Shown: positions 1,578 through 6,830 of the stretch, one piece after another
Layout: each line of letters begins with the position of its first letter
Position numbering within the stretch: position 1 is the first letter of the stretch
DNA from: Lachnospiraceae bacterium
Lineage (GTDB): Bacteria; Bacillota; Clostridia; Lachnospirales; Lachnospiraceae
Assembly (NCBI GenBank): GCA_016291405.1
Contig: JAEEXG010000024.1
Span: 1 to 35,813 of the forward strand
Direction: 5' to 3'
Length of the DNA: 35,813 bases
Translations under genes and position numbers: made by a program
Notes under the pieces: model-generated
Told to the model about the DNA's origin: nothing
The model's input: the letters and a program-made list of their open reading frames with translations, nothing else
Databases searched by the model: none

Positions 1578-1611
1578 GAAGCCTAAGAAAAATAAGAAAA
1601 TATTTGAAAAG

Positions 1612-1641
1612 AGCCGTGAGAGTAACTCACGGCTTATTTTT
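1612..1641 (+). terminator. Terminator of the permease gene
   Basis: AGCCGTGAG (1612-1620) pairs with CTCACGGCT (1626-1634) around AGTAA, followed by TATTTTT. Confidence 0.9.
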
Positions 1642-1823: not shown

Positions 1824-2492
1824 GTGGATAAAGTTAAAGTTATCGAGATAAAAAGAAGTGTCTATGAAAGTAACGACAGAGAAGCCGATAAGCTTAGGTC
1901 GGAGCTTAAAGAAAAAGGCATCTTTCTTTTAAACTTGATGTCTTCACCCGGAAGCGGAAAGACAACCACACTTAAGCAGACTATCAACAAAATGAAGGAT
2001 GAATTTACAATCGGTGTAATGGAGGCGGACATCGACTCGGATGTAGATGCCATTACCATTGCCAAAGAAACCGGAGTTAAATCCATTCAGCTTCACACTG
2101 GCGGTATGTGCCACCTTGATGCAGGCATGACAAGACAGGGACTTGATGAGCTTATCGATTCAAAAATCGATTTTGCAATCTTAGAAAATGTCGGAAACCT
2201 TGTTTGCCCCGCAGAGTTTGATACGGGTGCCACAAAGAACGCAATGATTTTATCGGTTCCCGAAGGACACGATAAACCGCTTAAGTATCCTCTCATGTTT
2301 TCTATTTGTGATGTGGTGCTTATTAATAAGATTGATGTAATGCCTTATTTTGATTTTGATATGGATGAATGTATAAAGAACATTAAGTATCGAAATCCCA
2401 AGGCAGAAGTAATTCCTATCTGTGCAAAGACCGGCGAAGGAATCGATAAATTCGCCGCATGGCTTAAAGAACAGATTAAGGCAAATATTTAG
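1824..2492 (+). CDS. hypB: HypB, nickel-inserting GTPase (metallochaperone)
   Basis: HypB is a SIMIBI-class GTPase that supplies nickel during maturation of nickel enzymes, classically [NiFe] hydrogenase. The 222-residue protein shows the P-loop SPGSGKTT (residues 41-48), the metal-site motif GMCHLDAGM with Cys96-His97, the ENVGNLVCPAEFD segment (121-133) and the NKID guanine-specificity motif (168-171). The N terminus lacks the His-rich nickel-storage stretch and the extra CxxCxC motif found in some HypB proteins, so this is the short form. The GTG start is fixed by AGGAGG at 1813-1818. The TAG stop overlaps the ribosome binding site of the next gene, which implies translational coupling. 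No HypC, D, E or F gene and no hydrogenase gene is in view. Assignment to HypB is firm; its client enzyme is unknown. Confidence 0.93.
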   Translation: MDKVKVIEIKRSVYESNDREADKLRSELKEKGIFLLNLMSSPGSGKTTTLKQTINKMKDEFTIGVMEADIDSDVDAITIAKETGVKSIQLHTGGMCHLDAGMTRQGLDELIDSKIDFAILENVGNLVCPAEFDTGATKNAMILSVPEGHDKPLKYPLMFSICDVVLINKIDVMPYFDFDMDECIKNIKYRNPKAEVIPICAKTGEGIDKFAAWLKEQIKANI

Positions 2493-2500
2493 GAGGTATT

Positions 2501-5299
2501 ATGGCAGGAACAAATCCCAATTATCCTTTAAGACCGGATTATGTAGATGTAAGCGAACCCATAAAGGAAAACATTGCGAAGCTTGGCGCACTTATTACAG
2601 ACAGAATTCCCATTAAGTTAAAACTTGCCAAGGTTACAAAAGACGACCCCGAATACTGGGCAGTCAGAGTCCTTTGTTACGATGACGATGAGCTGGCAAA
2701 ATTTGTTATCGATAACTTTAAGGCAATAAGAAAACCCAAGACCTTTGAAGATTTAAAGAAATCATCAGGCCTTCCCGACGATGAATTAAACAAAATCCTT
2801 GATAAGATTTCTTATTCCGGACTTGTTGAATACAACTGGGAAAACGAAAAGCACGAAAAGCAGTGGGTGCTTCCCATGTTCGTGCCCGGTTCAGGTGAGT
2901 TTTCAAACATGAACTTAAAGCTCATTGACGAGCATCCCGAACTTGGTATGTTCTTTGAACATATGACACGTCTCCCCCTTGAAAAGGTTACCCCTATGGT
3001 GCCCCCCGGAGGCGCAGGAATCGGTATGCACGTTATCCCCGTTCAAAAAGAAGTGGATATGTGCAATGAGTCTATTTCAATAGAAAAGATTTCTTACTGG
3101 CTTGATAAATATGAAGGAAAGTACGCAGCATCTCCCTGCTCATGCAGAAGATCTCGTATGACCTATGATGAAGGCTGTGCCGATGATTTCCACGATTGGT
3201 GTATCGCTGTTGGCGATATGGCAGATTACGTTGTGGAGACACAAAAGGGCGGCCACTATATCACCAAAGAAGAAGCTCTTGAAATATTTAAAAAGGGTGA
3301 AGAAAACGGCTTTGTTCACCAGATTACAAACATAGACGGAGAAGATAAGATTTTCGCTATCTGTAACTGTAACGTTAACGTGTGCTACGCCCTTAGAACT
3401 TCACAGCTCTTTAACACTCCCAACATGTCTGCATCCGCATACAGAGCACACGTTGAAAAAGAAAAATGTGTGGCCTGCGGAAGATGCGTTGAAGTATGTC
3501 CCGCAGGAGCACTTTCTTTGGGACAGAAGTTATGTAAGAAAGACGGCACACAGGTTAAATATCCTAAGCACCTTCTTCCTTCAGACAAGCCTTGGAGCGA
3601 AAAGGACTGGGACTGGGATTACAGAGACAATAACCGTAAAGAAACCCATGAATCGGGAACCGCTCCCTGTAAGACAGCTTGCCCTGCCCACATTGCGGTT
3701 CAGGGTTACTTAAAGCTTGCTTCTCAGGGTAAGTACACAGAAGCCCTTGCTTTAATTAAAAAGAACAATCCTTTACCCGCAGTTTGCGGTCATATTTGTA
3801 ACCGTCGTTGTGAAAATGCCTGCACAAGAGGCACCATCGATGAAGCGGTTGCAATCGATGAAGTAAAGAAATTCATCGCCATGAAGGATATGGACGAAAG
3901 CACAAGATACATCCCTAAGAAGGTTATTCCCAAAGTACAGGGTGAATTTGAAGAAAAGATTGCCATTATTGGTGCGGGCCCCGCAGGTCTTTCCTGTGCT
4001 TACTATTTGGCAGAGAGAGGATACAGACCCACAATCTTTGAAAAGAACGCCCGTCCCGGCGGAATGCTTACTTACGGTATTCCTTCATATAAGCTTGAAA
4101 AAGACGTTATTGATGCTGAAATTGAAATCATGCGCATTATGGGCGTTGAAATTAAGTGTAATGTTGAAGTCGGTAAAGACGTAACAATCGAAGAATTAAG
4201 AAAGCAGGGATACAAGGCTTTCTACATCGCTATCGGATGTCAGGGCGGACGTAAAGTCGGCGTTCCCGGAGAAGATGCTAAGGGCGTTGTGACTGCAGTT
4301 GATTTCTTAAGAGAAATAAACGGAACCGAAAAGTACGACATTAAGGGTGACGTAGTGGTTATCGGCGGCGGTAACGTTGCTATCGACTGCTCACGTGACG
4401 CTGTAAGAGTGGGCGCTCCCGTTGTCACTCAGGTTTCTTTGGAAACAAGAGACATTATGCCTGCAGCGGTAGAAGAAATAGAAGAAGCCGAAGAAGACGG
4501 TGTTGTATTTAAAGGCGGCTGGGGACCTAAGGAAATCCACGTTGATGAAGCCGGAAACGTTTGCGGCATCACATTTAAGAAGTGCACAAGCGTAAAGGAT
4601 GCAGACGGAAGATTTAACCCTCAGTACGATGAAGCAGACACCATGACCATCGATTGTAAGCACGTTGTACTTGCGGTTGGTCAGTCAATCGTTTGGGGCG
4701 ACTTACTTAAGGGCACAAAGGTTGAACTTGGAAGAGGAAACGGCGCTGTAGCAGATCCTAAGACCTATCAGACAGGTGAACCCGATATCTTTGCGGGCGG
4801 TGACGTTTACACCGGTCCTAAGTTTGTTATTGATGCAATTGCCGCAGGTAAAGAAGCCGCAACATCAATTCACAGATTTGTTCAGCCTCACGCTTCACTT
4901 ACAATCGGAAGAAACCAAAACTACTATGTTGAGCTTAACAAAGACGATATCAGTGTTGAATCTTACGATAACTCAAAGAGACAGATTCCCGGACATAAAG
5001 AGGGCGCTGATAAGAAGTCATTTAGAGACAATAAGCTTGTGTTTACAGAAGAACAGGTTAAGAAAGAAACCGCTCGTTGCTTAGGATGCGGTGCTACGGT
5101 TGTGGACCAAAACCAGTGCGTAGGATGCGGACTTTGCACCACACGATGTGAATTTGATGCAATTCATTTGCTTCGTGACGTTCCTGAAGCTTCAACCATG
5201 CGTAAGAGCGAAGACAAGCTTAAATACATTCTTCCCAACGGATTAAAGCAGGCAATCAAAGTGCGCATTAATCCTAAAAAGGAAGAGGATTGGGAATAA
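2501..5299 (+). CDS. Multi-[4Fe-4S] FAD/NAD(P)-dependent oxidoreductase (GltD-like core, novel N-terminal Fe-S region)
   Basis: This 932-residue cytoplasmic protein has several parts. Residues 75-125 look like a small winged helix. Residues 213-295 hold an unusual cysteine set (C213, C215, C226, C234, C288, C290, C295). Residues 323-333 are a ferredoxin motif CxxCxxCxxxC. Residues 390-441 hold the Fe-S cysteines (C390, C394, C429, C433, C437, C441) typical of glutamate synthase small subunit and dihydropyrimidine dehydrogenase N domains. GAGPAGL (491-497) binds FAD and GGGNVA (622-627) binds NAD(P)H. The C terminus adds CLGC (860-863) and CVGCGLCTTRC (873-883). The design suggests electron transfer between NAD(P)H and a low-potential partner over several clusters. 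No glutamate synthase large subunit is adjacent. Placement between hypB and hypA suggests a role with a nickel-dependent or membrane partner. AGGAGG (2491-2496) sets the start. Electron acceptor and substrate are unknown. Confidence 0.8.
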   Translation: MAGTNPNYPLRPDYVDVSEPIKENIAKLGALITDRIPIKLKLAKVTKDDPEYWAVRVLCYDDDELAKFVIDNFKAIRKPKTFEDLKKSSGLPDDELNKILDKISYSGLVEYNWENEKHEKQWVLPMFVPGSGEFSNMNLKLIDEHPELGMFFEHMTRLPLEKVTPMVPPGGAGIGMHVIPVQKEVDMCNESISIEKISYWLDKYEGKYAASPCSCRRSRMTYDEGCADDFHDWCIAVGDMADYVVETQKGGHYITKEEALEIFKKGEENGFVHQITNIDGEDKIFAICNCNVNVCYALRTSQLFNTPNMSASAYRAHVEKEKCVACGRCVEVCPAGALSLGQKLCKKDGTQVKYPKHLLPSDKPWSEKDWDWDYRDNNRKETHESGTAPCKTACPAHIAVQGYLKLASQGKYTEALALIKKNNPLPAVCGHICNRRCENACTRGTIDEAVAIDEVKKFIAMKDMDESTRYIPKKVIPKVQGEFEEKIAIIGAGPAGLSCAYYLAERGYRPTIFEKNARPGGMLTYGIPSYKLEKDVIDAEIEIMRIMGVEIKCNVEVGKDVTIEELRKQGYKAFYIAIGCQGGRKVGVPGEDAKGVVTAVDFLREINGTEKYDIKGDVVVIGGGNVAIDCSRDAVRVGAPVVTQVSLETRDIMPAAVEEIEEAEEDGVVFKGGWGPKEIHVDEAGNVCGITFKKCTSVKDADGRFNPQYDEADTMTIDCKHVVLAVGQSIVWGDLLKGTKVELGRGNGAVADPKTYQTGEPDIFAGGDVYTGPKFVIDAIAAGKEAATSIHRFVQPHASLTIGRNQNYYVELNKDDISVESYDNSKRQIPGHKEGADKKSFRDNKLVFTEEQVKKETARCLGCGATVVDQNQCVGCGLCTTRCEFDAIHLLRDVPEASTMRKSEDKLKYILPNGLKQAIKVRINPKKEEDWE

Positions 5300-5302
5300 T
5301 CG

Positions 5303-5647
5303 ATGCATGAACTTGGCGTAGTTTTCCACATAATCGATGATGTAACCGATGTGGGAAAAGAAAACAACCTTTCAAATATTGAGTCAGTGACGCTTCAACT
5401 TGGCACGGTTTCAACCGTAATCCCCGAATATCTTACGGATTGTTGGAAGTGGGCCGTGAAGCGGACTGAACTTTTAAAAGAGGCAAAGCTCATAATTGAG
5501 CCTATTGAAGCAATTTCTCATTGTGAAGACTGCTTGACGGATTTTGACACCATTAAATACGGCAAAACCTGCCCCAATTGCGGAAGTGAGCATACTTATC
5601 TTTTGCAGGGAAACGAATTCATGATTAAAGAAATTGCGGGAAGTTAG
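5303..5647 (+). CDS. hypA: HypA, nickel metallochaperone
   Basis: HypA binds nickel through its N-terminal MHE and partners with HypB in nickel delivery. The 114-residue protein starts MHEL, so the nickel-binding His2 is in place; this fixes the ATG at 5303. The C-terminal zinc site has two CxxC pairs, C74/C77 and C90/C93 (the second as CPNC). The length is normal for the family. The middle (LGTVSTVIPEYL) is recognisable as HypA but divergent from hydrogenase-linked forms. It starts 3 bp after the oxidoreductase stop codon and uses a purine-rich site (GGAAGAGGA) inside the end of that gene, so the two are probably coupled. HypA homologues also serve urease, so hydrogenase is not the only possible client. 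Confidence 0.88.
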   Translation: MHELGVVFHIIDDVTDVGKENNLSNIESVTLQLGTVSTVIPEYLTDCWKWAVKRTELLKEAKLIIEPIEAISHCEDCLTDFDTIKYGKTCPNCGSEHTYLLQGNEFMIKEIAGS

Positions 5648-5650
5648 ATT

Positions 5651-5694
5651 AAAAGCCGTAAGGCTTTAAAAAATAATTTTATCCCTTAAGGGAA
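5651..5694. other. Small hairpins between hypA and the membrane protein gene
   Basis: AAAGCC-GTAA-GGCTTT (5652-5667) is followed by an A/T run and then the palindrome TCCCTTAAGGGA (5683-5694), just before the ribosome binding site. It resembles a weak intra-operon attenuator or RNA processing site; the stem is only 6 bp. Confidence 0.35.
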
Positions 5695-5710
5695 AAGAGG
5701 AGGAAAGATT

Positions 5711-6787
5711 ATGTTATTCCAACTTTACGGGGATCAGGCAATGATGCAGATCCTTGGATGGGTTTTGGTTTTTGCGGGATTAATCGTTATGAACGAAATC
5801 GGCCGTAGGACCAAAGTCGGCGGTGTATGCGTATTTATCGTAGTTCCGCTTATTCTTACAGTTTATTTTATCGTTGAAACCCTTGGCGCTAAAAGCGGTG
5901 CCGCATGGGCAGTTAACAACCAGACGGTTCTTTACATGAACGGATGGTTCCATTACGCAAAGCTCTATGCAGCAGACATAGGATGCGTAGGTTTCATGAT
6001 GATTAAGTACGGATGGGGAATCGGTAAGAAAGAATGGTTTAAACCCTGGCCTTTCGTTATCGTAGCCATCAACATTTTAATTGCGGTAGGTTCAGATATC
6101 GAATCTGCCATTAACGGATTTAATGCAGGCGGCATGGCAGGTGGCTGGTGGTTCTCATCAGAAAACGTATGGCTTTACGGCGGCTGGTGGAACATCTTAA
6201 ATGCTTTGGCCGGTGTACTAAACATCCTTTGTATGACAGGCTGGTGGGGAATCTACTCTTCAAAGAAGAAAGACGACATGCTTTGGCCCGATATGACATT
6301 CTGGTTTATCATCGCTTACGATGTATGGAACTTTGAATACACATATTGTAACCTTCCCACCCATACATGGTATTGCGGTGTGGCTTTGCTTTTGGCTCCC
6401 ACATTTGCAAACGCTTTCTGGAACAAGGGCGGTTGGATTCAAAACCGTGCAAACACACTTGCAATCTGGTGTATGTTTGCCCAGGTTTTCCCGCTTTTCC
6501 AGATTACAACACCTTTTTCAACACTCCCTTCACTTTACAAAGGAGCAGTGGAAAATGGAATTACAGCTTTAGATATGACAAAGATTACTTCAGCTTCAGA
6601 GCTTGCTTCTAGGGGAATCACAGCAGATCCCACAGCTCAGGGCGTCGTTGCAATACTTGCAGTGGCAGTTAACGTTATCTGCCTTGGCGTAATCTTTAAG
6701 CGTGCAAAAGCTCTTCACAAAAATCCTTATAAGAATGAAATCTTTGTAGGAACAAAAGACTTCGAAGAAGCAATGGCACGTAGATAA
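5711..6787 (+). CDS. Trp-rich polytopic membrane protein of unknown function (DUF5692-like)
   Basis: I do not recognise a known function; from memory it resembles the DUF5692 family. The 358-residue protein has about eight to nine hydrophobic segments and roughly 20 tryptophans, many in GGWW or GWW clusters (for example residues 145-160 and 177-180). A polar patch within the membrane region, residues 204-222, holds D204, E209, C213, H218 and C222, which could form a metal or redox site; H81, C92, C174 and C254 are other possible ligands. The start follows AGAGGAGG (5696-5703). It lies 63 bp after hypA and ends in a strong terminator, so it is the last gene of the hyp cassette. I infer that it is the membrane partner, or possibly the nickel client, of the preceding proteins; this is unproven. 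Confidence 0.6.
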   Translation: MLFQLYGDQAMMQILGWVLVFAGLIVMNEIGRRTKVGGVCVFIVVPLILTVYFIVETLGAKSGAAWAVNNQTVLYMNGWFHYAKLYAADIGCVGFMMIKYGWGIGKKEWFKPWPFVIVAINILIAVGSDIESAINGFNAGGMAGGWWFSSENVWLYGGWWNILNALAGVLNILCMTGWWGIYSSKKKDDMLWPDMTFWFIIAYDVWNFEYTYCNLPTHTWYCGVALLLAPTFANAFWNKGGWIQNRANTLAIWCMFAQVFPLFQITTPFSTLPSLYKGAVENGITALDMTKITSASELASRGITADPTAQGVVAILAVAVNVICLGVIFKRAKALHKNPYKNEIFVGTKDFEEAMARR

Positions 6788-6796
6788 TATGTACTT

Positions 6797-6830
6797 AAGA
6801 GGGTCGAAAAATCGGCCCTCTTTTTTCTTT
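6797..6830 (+). terminator. Terminator of the hyp cassette
   Basis: AAGAGGGTCG (6797-6806) pairs with CGGCCCTCTT (6813-6822, one T-G pair) around AAAAAT and runs into TTTTCTTTTTTC. Confidence 0.92.

Follow-up and report, generated by a model that had tools for sequence, protein, structure and literature searches.

A hypB-flavoprotein-hypA-DUF5692 module in Lachnospiraceae: a putative IsrA-type reductase with a possible role in fatty-acid hydrogenation

Organization of the module

Contig JAEEXG010000024.1 of a Lachnospiraceae bacterium (assembly GCA_016291405.1), analysed over its full length of 35,813 bp and referred to here as the window, carries a unit of four genes encoding HypB, a large Fe-S/FAD/NAD(P)H oxidoreductase, HypA, and a membrane protein of the DUF5692 family (Table 1). 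All four are on the forward strand with intergenic gaps of 8, 3, and 63 nt, and the strong terminator-like hairpins that flank the unit are the first two of 12 listed, compared with 5.3 ± 2.3 in shuffled sequence. A preliminary description of this DNA had reported a tight unit with a terminator on each side and a tryptophan-rich polytopic fourth product, all of which holds (the DUF5692 protein has 20 tryptophans among its 358 residues). The genome to which the contig belongs, G000, comprises 2.81 Mb in 121 contigs and is 99.45% complete. The closest relatives of both the flavoprotein and the DUF5692 protein are in genomes of the same genus and in Lachnospiraceae metagenome-assembled genomes (MAGs), mostly from the rumen.

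The module is of a known kind, and its neighbourhood is already in print. IsrA is a 'clade 9' oxidoreductase of Acetobacterium and a putative isoprene reductase; among 988 of its homologues, neighbour co-occurrence is 0.73 for HypA, 0.56 for HypB, and 0.40 for DUF5692 (PMC10134865). The preliminary description picked out the cassette of hyp genes and flavoprotein but not the IsrA-type family, which that paper describes with these same neighbours. New here are the tracking of DUF5692 and IsrA-type genes across genomes, the invariance of six N-domain cysteines, the isomerase-like gene found beside the module in a sister clade, and the largely gut and rumen origin of the best named loci.

Table 1. 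Coordinates of the module, its bordering hairpins, and the regions of its flavoprotein (aa, amino acids)
Feature	Coordinates	Strand	Basis
Terminator-like hairpin 5' of unit	1611-1635	+	10 pairs, 6 G-C
hypB	1824-2492	+	GTG start; TIGR00073 236.6 bits (cut-off 121.2); PF02492
IsrA-type (clade 9) Fe-S/FAD/NAD(P)H oxidoreductase, 932 aa, proposed catalyst	2501-5299	+	Pfam/NCBIfam domains; alignment; IsrA-like architecture
N-terminal domain, aa 1-310, with proposed six-cysteine 'cluster V' site: CxC pairs C213-x-C215 and C288-x-C290, plus C234 and C295	2501-3430	+	
Ferredoxin-type 4Fe-4S stretch, aa 316-346 (C323, C326, C329, C333)	3446-3538	+	PF00037; invariant 95/95
Dihydropyrimidine-dehydrogenase domain II, two 4Fe-4S clusters, aa 387-465	3659-3895	+	PF14691
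FAD/NAD(P) binding domain, GltD/NfnB type, aa 486-783	3956-4849	+	PF07992; PDB relatives NfnA, NfnI alpha subunit
C-terminal cysteine cluster, second ferredoxin-type site, aa 860-886 (C860, C863, C873, C876, C879, C883)	5078-5158	+	Second PF00037 stretch; invariant 95/95
hypA	5303-5647	+	PF01155 102.6 bits (cut-off 28.9); TIGR00100 62.0 bits (cut-off 88.1)
DUF5692 polytopic membrane protein, 358 aa, proposed membrane/lipid-facing partner	5711-6787	+	PF18948 451.4 bits (cut-off 27)
Terminator hairpin 3' of unit	6797-6822	+	11 pairs, then T-rich tail

Linkage and co-occurrence of DUF5692 and IsrA-type genes

A scan for DUF5692 in named genomes returned at least 572 stretches, of which the best 80 (those most like the window's) were kept; with 23 further regions these make 103 loci, or 100 once two duplicates and one DUF5692 fragment are removed. 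An IsrA-type gene is present in 54 of the 100 distinct loci, hypA in 54, hypB in 39, and all three in 37, and DUF5692 stands alone in 43. Where all four genes are present (37/100) they are found in seven arrangements, the order in the window being the commonest (21), so the 'fixed interleaving' of chaperones and redox protein once seen as the strongest mark of a defined module does not stand. Many of the loci are cut by contig ends; where at least 5.5 kb is available on both sides, an IsrA-type gene adjoins DUF5692 in 36 of 61. An adjoining IsrA-type gene is missing from 38 of the named loci, and for all 30 of these that were searched one was found elsewhere in the genome, counting a partial match only in G475 and, in G447, an IsrA-type gene that lies beside a second copy of DUF5692.

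The association is also seen genome by genome in two sets. In a set of relatives of the window and named genomes, many of them incomplete MAGs, IsrA-type genes are present in 39 of 40 genomes with DUF5692, the 30 just mentioned among them, versus 4 of 18 without it. An even sample of 398 genomes across the phylum has DUF5692 in 12 and a full-length IsrA-type gene in nine (above 400 bits, with all other hits at or below 162 bits and at most five candidates scored per genome), with both in eight (Fisher's exact test, 3e-13, ignoring kinship). A quick tree built from 95 IsrA-type proteins requires at least 13 changes of the label 'beside DUF5692', indicating that the linkage re-forms or dissolves often and that repeated loss and gain is a more probable history for it than a single inheritance; some labels are unsure at contig ends, and locus L212, labelled as lacking DUF5692, has it alongside.

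The module is also found on a record typed as a mobilizable plasmid: a 267-kb sequence of Subdoligranulum variabile (OY725877.1, locus L196) carries the whole unit in the window's order. DUF5692 proteins 66-73% identical to that of the window are present in MAGs assigned to other phyla (Treponema L058, L076, and L084; Bacteroidales and relatives L073, L075, and L103), with an IsrA-type gene alongside in five of these six loci, reflecting either horizontal transfer or binning error.

The flavoprotein is of the IsrA type

The flavoprotein can be placed in the IsrA-type family by its architecture, cysteine pattern, and neighbours rather than by a direct sequence match to IsrA (VUZ27132.1). It is about 900 residues long, with a dihydropyrimidine-dehydrogenase (DPD) domain II, an FAD/NAD(P) domain, ferredoxin-type clusters on both sides, and an N-terminal domain containing two CxC motifs and six cysteines. 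The isr operon of Acetobacterium wieringae ISORED-2 and strain Y likewise encodes a flavoprotein of ~900 residues with DPD domain II, an FAD/NAD(P) domain, and extra ferredoxin-type clusters; it shares the six-cysteine site with two CxC motifs and the adjoining hypA and hypB, and its genome is similarly without a [NiFe]-hydrogenase. The two differ in that the window has DUF5692, whereas the isr operon has an additional ferredoxin and a second HypA, neither of which is found beside the window's unit.

Residues 367-867 align with 12 PDB sequences (E-values of 5e-131 to 2e-65), among them NfnA, the NfnI alpha subunit, GltD, and dihydropyrimidine dehydrogenase. NfnB, GltD, and dihydropyrimidine dehydrogenase match this portion only, leaving the cysteine-rich N-terminal domain of ~310 residues uncovered, and a profile search of the PDB with that domain (aa 1-310) found no convincing relative (best E-value 0.094). 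The predicted model of the whole protein, with a predicted local distance difference test score of 69.5 and values below 50 for residues 292-393, is too weak to show cluster geometry.

The six N-domain cysteines listed in Table 1 are invariant in 95/95 distinct IsrA-type proteins from the fetched loci, in agreement with the Cys6 site proposed for IsrA. The two CxC motifs are 75 residues apart, compared with 74 in IsrA, where they are published as Cys180-182 and Cys254-256 (PMC10134865). C226 is kept in 85/95 and C345 in 91/95, and those cysteines of the ordinary clusters that were counted are otherwise invariant. Because the six N-domain cysteines are invariant throughout, the flavoprotein is the likely catalyst of the unit, which narrows the earlier suggestion that catalysis might lie in the oxidoreductase, in the membrane protein, or in a product encoded elsewhere; the membrane protein, which lacks any invariant histidine or cysteine in 101 sequences, is not favoured as a metal site.

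Other IsrA-related genes are present in the sampled genomes. Weaker matches to the N-domain profile occur in 75 of the 398 phylum-sample genomes in addition to the nine full-length ones, mostly in reading frames of ~300-440 aa, and are probably ferredoxin-like proteins sharing the IsrA N-domain, as does the ferredoxin of the isr operon. One 2.1-Mb genome (G479, that of locus L127) has ten IsrA-type matches, a lineage expansion that perhaps serves many substrates. In four loci (L229:1352-9920, L228, L233, and L223) the neighbours of the IsrA-type gene encode a pair of HgdB/C-type double-cubane proteins along with a protein of ~245 aa, which in L229, the only one of these loci whose proteins were scanned, matches the CdhC/acetyl-CoA-synthase beta domain weakly. 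A BadF-type activator gene is common to L229 and L233, and a MinD-type ATPase to L228, L229, and L233. The neighbours in these four loci hint at a second reductase and at some involvement of nickel clusters.

HypA and HypB are present in the absence of a hydrogenase

The HypB of the window passes the TIGR00073 cut-off and contains the CHxnC nickel motif, consistent with a nickel-chaperone GTPase that lacks the N-terminal metal-binding extension; the pattern C-H-(30 to 38)-C is present in 41/41 distinct HypB proteins of the module. HypA passes the Pfam HypA model, with an N-terminal MHE and two CxxC zinc motifs, and fails the hydrogenase equivalog TIGR00100, identifying it as a divergent HypA. 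Among 52 distinct HypA proteins of the module, 48 start with MHE and all 52 have both CxxC motifs.

The preliminary description noted that no hydrogenase accompanies these chaperones in the window, and this extends to the whole of G000, in which family searches found no [NiFe]-hydrogenase large subunit (for which G000 was the one genome searched), no HypD, no urease, and no CO dehydrogenase. Explanations by hydrogenase, urease, or CO dehydrogenase are rejected for this genome on these empty searches. More widely, HypD is missing from 29 of the 42 genomes tested that have DUF5692 or an IsrA-type gene, not all of them complete assemblies, including 8/8 tested from the window's own genus, but is present in the other 13, among them all seven named Butyrivibrio tested. 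A whole Ech hydrogenase is reported for 47 of 62 genomes of the Butyrivibrio group (PMC4478896). Of 22 module genomes, four have CO dehydrogenase above its cut-off, and one has a short stretch resembling urease that exceeds the cut-off.

The chaperones instead follow the flavoprotein. The window's genus is represented by 18 genomes: full-length HypA is found in 9/9 that have an IsrA-type gene versus 1/9 that do not, and in the lone exception (G016) hypA lies at the start of a contig beside DUF5692. In 40 wider relatives, full-length HypA without a detected IsrA-type gene occurs in three (G020, G021, and G024). The tracking of IsrA by HypA within the genus suggests that the chaperones belong with the flavoprotein and not with a hydrogenase; the metal that they deliver may be nickel.

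The DUF5692 membrane protein

The fourth gene product is a clear member of DUF5692. Its AlphaFold2 model is helical with a predicted template modelling score of 0.79, and a search with this model found no fold relative in the PDB better than E 0.27; no sequence relative was found at E-values up to 1. Forty-one positions are at least 98% conserved in 101 DUF5692 sequences, including R32, K84, D189, D194, Y203, W206, N207, Q244, and R246, and none of the 41 is histidine or cysteine. H81 and H218 are kept in 93/101, and C92, C174, C222, and C254 in 87-92. This pattern speaks weakly against a metal centre in DUF5692 and would allow a role in binding an anionic lipid. Of the metal-dependent membrane redox system postulated earlier, a defined redox module with HypA and HypB and without a hydrogenase is supported; the membrane protein is not favoured as its metal site.

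DUF5692 is named once in the main text of PMC10134865, and a search of 5.39 million papers, outside subscription papers and preprints, found no other that names it. At one locus (L037:7674-8546, + strand) a second, distant DUF5692-like protein scoring 23 bits (cut-off 27) is arranged in tandem with DUF5692 near a TetR regulator.

An isomerase-like neighbour in a sister clade

In nine loci (L035, L036, and L042-L048) a flavoprotein of ~420 aa adjoins the module, or, in L036, DUF5692 alone; eight of the nine have IsrA. A profile of this protein matches PDB entry 2b9w over its full length (6.1e-86), with the next hit (1e-13) covering the N-terminal FAD-binding part only. The PDB's own label for 2b9w is 'putative aminooxidase', and we take the entry to be the polyunsaturated fatty acid isomerase of Propionibacterium acnes, in which Arg88 and Phe193 are presumably the residues that hold the substrate carboxylate. 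The residues aligned with Arg88 and Phe193 are invariant in all nine loci. Full-length copies of the isomerase-like gene are present in 6 of the 398 phylum-sample genomes, and all six have DUF5692; as the profile was built from the same nine loci its presence there is by construction, but its absence from the 386 without DUF5692 is not (the best four candidates per genome were scored, and the next hit has 53 bits). The gene always adjoins a ~340-aa protein resembling helix-turn-helix and IS481-transposase proteins (9/9 loci; 93 bits against a cut-off of 224 in the one scanned), either a domesticated regulator or part of a mobile cassette.

The putative pairing of a linoleate isomerase with a reductase is found in loci of relatives and not at the window. 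An isomerase making conjugated dienes beside a diene reductase would form a coherent pathway, and an IsrA-bearing strain is reported to act on isoprene and butadiene and to leave ethene, propene, and fumarate unreduced (PMC9765523). For the window, such a pathway would hold by extension from the sister clade.

Hosts

The best 80 named loci are largely from gut and rumen bacteria, including Butyrivibrio (B. proteoclasticus P18 among them), Pseudobutyrivibrio, Roseburia inulinivorans, Lachnospira multipara, and Treponema. R. inulinivorans has DUF5692 at L095 and an IsrA-type gene in its genome, and B. proteoclasticus has all four genes at L101. R. inulinivorans, R. hominis, and B. fibrisolvens are described as producers of vaccenic acid, and hydroxy acids, not conjugated linoleic acid (CLA), are given as the products of R. 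faecis and R. intestinalis (PMC11723137); most butyrivibrios are reported to biohydrogenate, and B. proteoclasticus to do so through to stearate (PMC4478896). In the genus of genome G170, which is probably Butyrivibrio as the G170 protein groups with that of B. proteoclasticus, IsrA-type genes are present in 54 of 79 genomes and fall into two paralogue classes, of ~540-573 and ~403-419 bits. By hand tally of 47 good genomes, 23 have both paralogues, five the high-scoring one only, five the ~405-bit one only, and one another type.

Surrounding genes

The remainder of the window (7758-35806) encodes a flagellar cluster (FliF, an FliI-type ATPase, and an FlgE-type protein) as well as a C39-like peptidase, a TPM-domain protein, LepA, a HemN-like protein, a ComM-like Mg-chelatase, and topoisomerase I. 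No lipid or nickel genes were found among the ten proteins scanned in this region, the other open reading frames of the window being unscanned.

Proposed function and alternatives

We propose that the module encodes a HypA/HypB-matured IsrA-type reductase whose substrates are unsaturated fatty acids with conjugated double bonds, and that DUF5692 is its lipid-facing partner; we would give this about an even chance of being correct. The observations behind it are the family assignment, the conservation of domains and cysteines, co-occurrence, linkage, the absence of hydrogenase-assembly genes, and the isomerase-like link in the sister clade; from these we infer the metal, the substrate, the electron donor, and the role of DUF5692. 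Electrons from NAD(P)H would enter at the FAD domain, as expected for the family, and run along four [4Fe-4S] clusters to the six-cysteine metal site of the N-terminal domain. With no hydrogenase to assemble, HypB and HypA would load nickel or another metal at this site, and nickel loading there has been proposed for IsrA by its authors (PMC10134865). The likeliest substrate would be a conjugated unsaturated fatty acid, for example one of the CLAs formed in rumen biohydrogenation, and DUF5692, with its conserved core of Arg, Lys, Asp, Tyr, and Trp, may either deliver the lipid to the soluble reductase or tether that enzyme to the membrane. A known activity of this type is the CLA reductase of Butyrivibrio fibrisolvens (Hughes 1982 and Fukuda 2007, via PMC4478896 and PMC2654759), which reduces one double bond of a conjugated fatty acid, is described as membrane-associated, and comes from the same host group as the module. 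Fatty-acid biohydrogenation is in our view the best-supported substrate class, the chances for and against it being roughly balanced.

Several points weigh against this proposal. Fukuda et al. 2007, cited in PMC4478896 and PMC2654759, reported a sequence for the CLA reductase, and it may be that of another protein. The choice of hosts is biased, as they come from the 80 loci most like the window's and from gut collections rich in MAGs, and 13 of the 47 good genomes of the G170 genus have no IsrA-type gene, which counts against a simple claim that every biohydrogenating Butyrivibrio has one. No full-length isomerase-like gene is present in the window's genome (best 1.8e-8) and none lies beside its unit; the isomerase-linked clade is distant (eight rows, Shimodaira-Hasegawa-like approximate likelihood ratio test 93), and the seven of its flavoproteins compared are 43-46% identical to that of the window. 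Locus L036 (genome G059) has DUF5692 and the isomerase-like gene with no IsrA-type gene. Four of the 12 sampled DUF5692 genomes lack a full-length IsrA-type gene (G059, G188, G257, and G240, the last with a DUF5692 fragment only), and in Latilactobacillus curvatus (CP117684.1, L195), where DUF5692 is found on a 592-kb sequence typed as a plasmid, the surrounding 18.9 kb contain no gene of the IsrA-type, hyp, or isomerase-like kinds. From these four genomes and the Latilactobacillus plasmid, DUF5692 has some role without the reductase. Full-length oleate hydratase hits occur in 0/9 IsrA-type genomes versus 19 of 389 others. A link between IsrA and oleate hydratase, which had been suggested by neighbourhoods in Acetobacterium (PMC10134865), is rejected on this count; by DUF5692 the figures are 2/12 genomes versus 17/386 (p 0.11). 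The only relevant paper found on the module is PMC10134865, and no published fatty-acid role for it was encountered in the same literature search as for DUF5692.

The strongest alternative is that the enzyme reduces other conjugated substrates, such as isoprene, terpenes, plant dienes, or aromatic acids with conjugated side chains, with DUF5692 serving in uptake of hydrophobic compounds. Isoprene induces the sole member found with physiological data, which is linked to the reduction of isoprene and butadiene (PMC10134865, PMC9765523); terpenes are proposed by the IsrA authors (PMC10134865), and some genomes have many paralogues, as with the ten matches in G479. Set against these are the 2b9w-type isomerase gene that lies beside DUF5692 in nine loci, eight with IsrA, the rumen and gut hosts known for fatty-acid hydrogenation, and the isoprene operon itself, for which DUF5692 is not reported (PMC10134865). 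We regard this alternative as unlikely, though far from negligible.

A membrane electron-transfer complex, in which the flavoprotein passes electrons through DUF5692 to a quinone-like carrier or to ion transport and the final acceptor is encoded elsewhere, would account for the repeated linkage of a soluble Fe-S flavoprotein to an integral membrane protein. It is improbable, however, as DUF5692 offers no fully conserved haem or cluster ligands, its gene and that of the flavoprotein are often far apart on the chromosome, and HypA and HypB would be left without a target. More improbable still is DUF5692 as the nickel enzyme with the flavoprotein as its electron donor: all four genes are linked, some genomes have DUF5692 without IsrA, and two histidines and four cysteines are widely kept, but none of these residues is invariant, and hypA-like genes are present in 29 of 40 loci around IsrA-type genes away from DUF5692 (one of the 40, L212, proves to have DUF5692 and no hypA). 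A last alternative, that hypA and hypB are normal accessory genes for hydrogenase or urease and lie next to the flavoprotein gene by coincidence, draws on the HypD of 13/42 hosts, with all seven named Butyrivibrio tested, and is largely refuted by the 29/42 module genomes without HypD, the empty searches of G000 for [NiFe]-hydrogenase, urease, and CO dehydrogenase, and the tracking of IsrA by HypA in the window's genus, leaving it scarcely credible.

Implications

Which trans- and conjugated fatty acids milk and meat contain is determined by rumen biohydrogenation. The reductase involved has been studied since the 1960s-80s, and a 2015 genome survey was unable to seek it as it was not in KEGG, COG, or Pfam (PMC4478896). 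A bolder form of the fatty-acid proposal would identify the module with the membrane-associated hydrogenase of fatty acids that has long been sought in rumen and gut bacteria: a flavoenzyme with nickel and iron-sulfur centres, saturating unactivated conjugated double bonds with DUF5692 as its lipid-binding subunit; this is a tentative idea that we think is probably wrong as it stands, but with a real chance of being right. If it is true, the two IsrA-type paralogues of butyrivibrios would divide the steps between them, one taking diene to monoene and the other monoene to stearate, and the enzyme would be, to our knowledge, the first nickel enzyme to act on lipids. In either form, the fatty-acid proposal would also provide a target for nickel chaperones in the absence of a hydrogenase and a first role for DUF5692. 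The module would offer a candidate gene set for an old question of rumen fat, one that is directly testable through the isomerase-like link in the sister clade and its presence in a vaccenic-acid producer.

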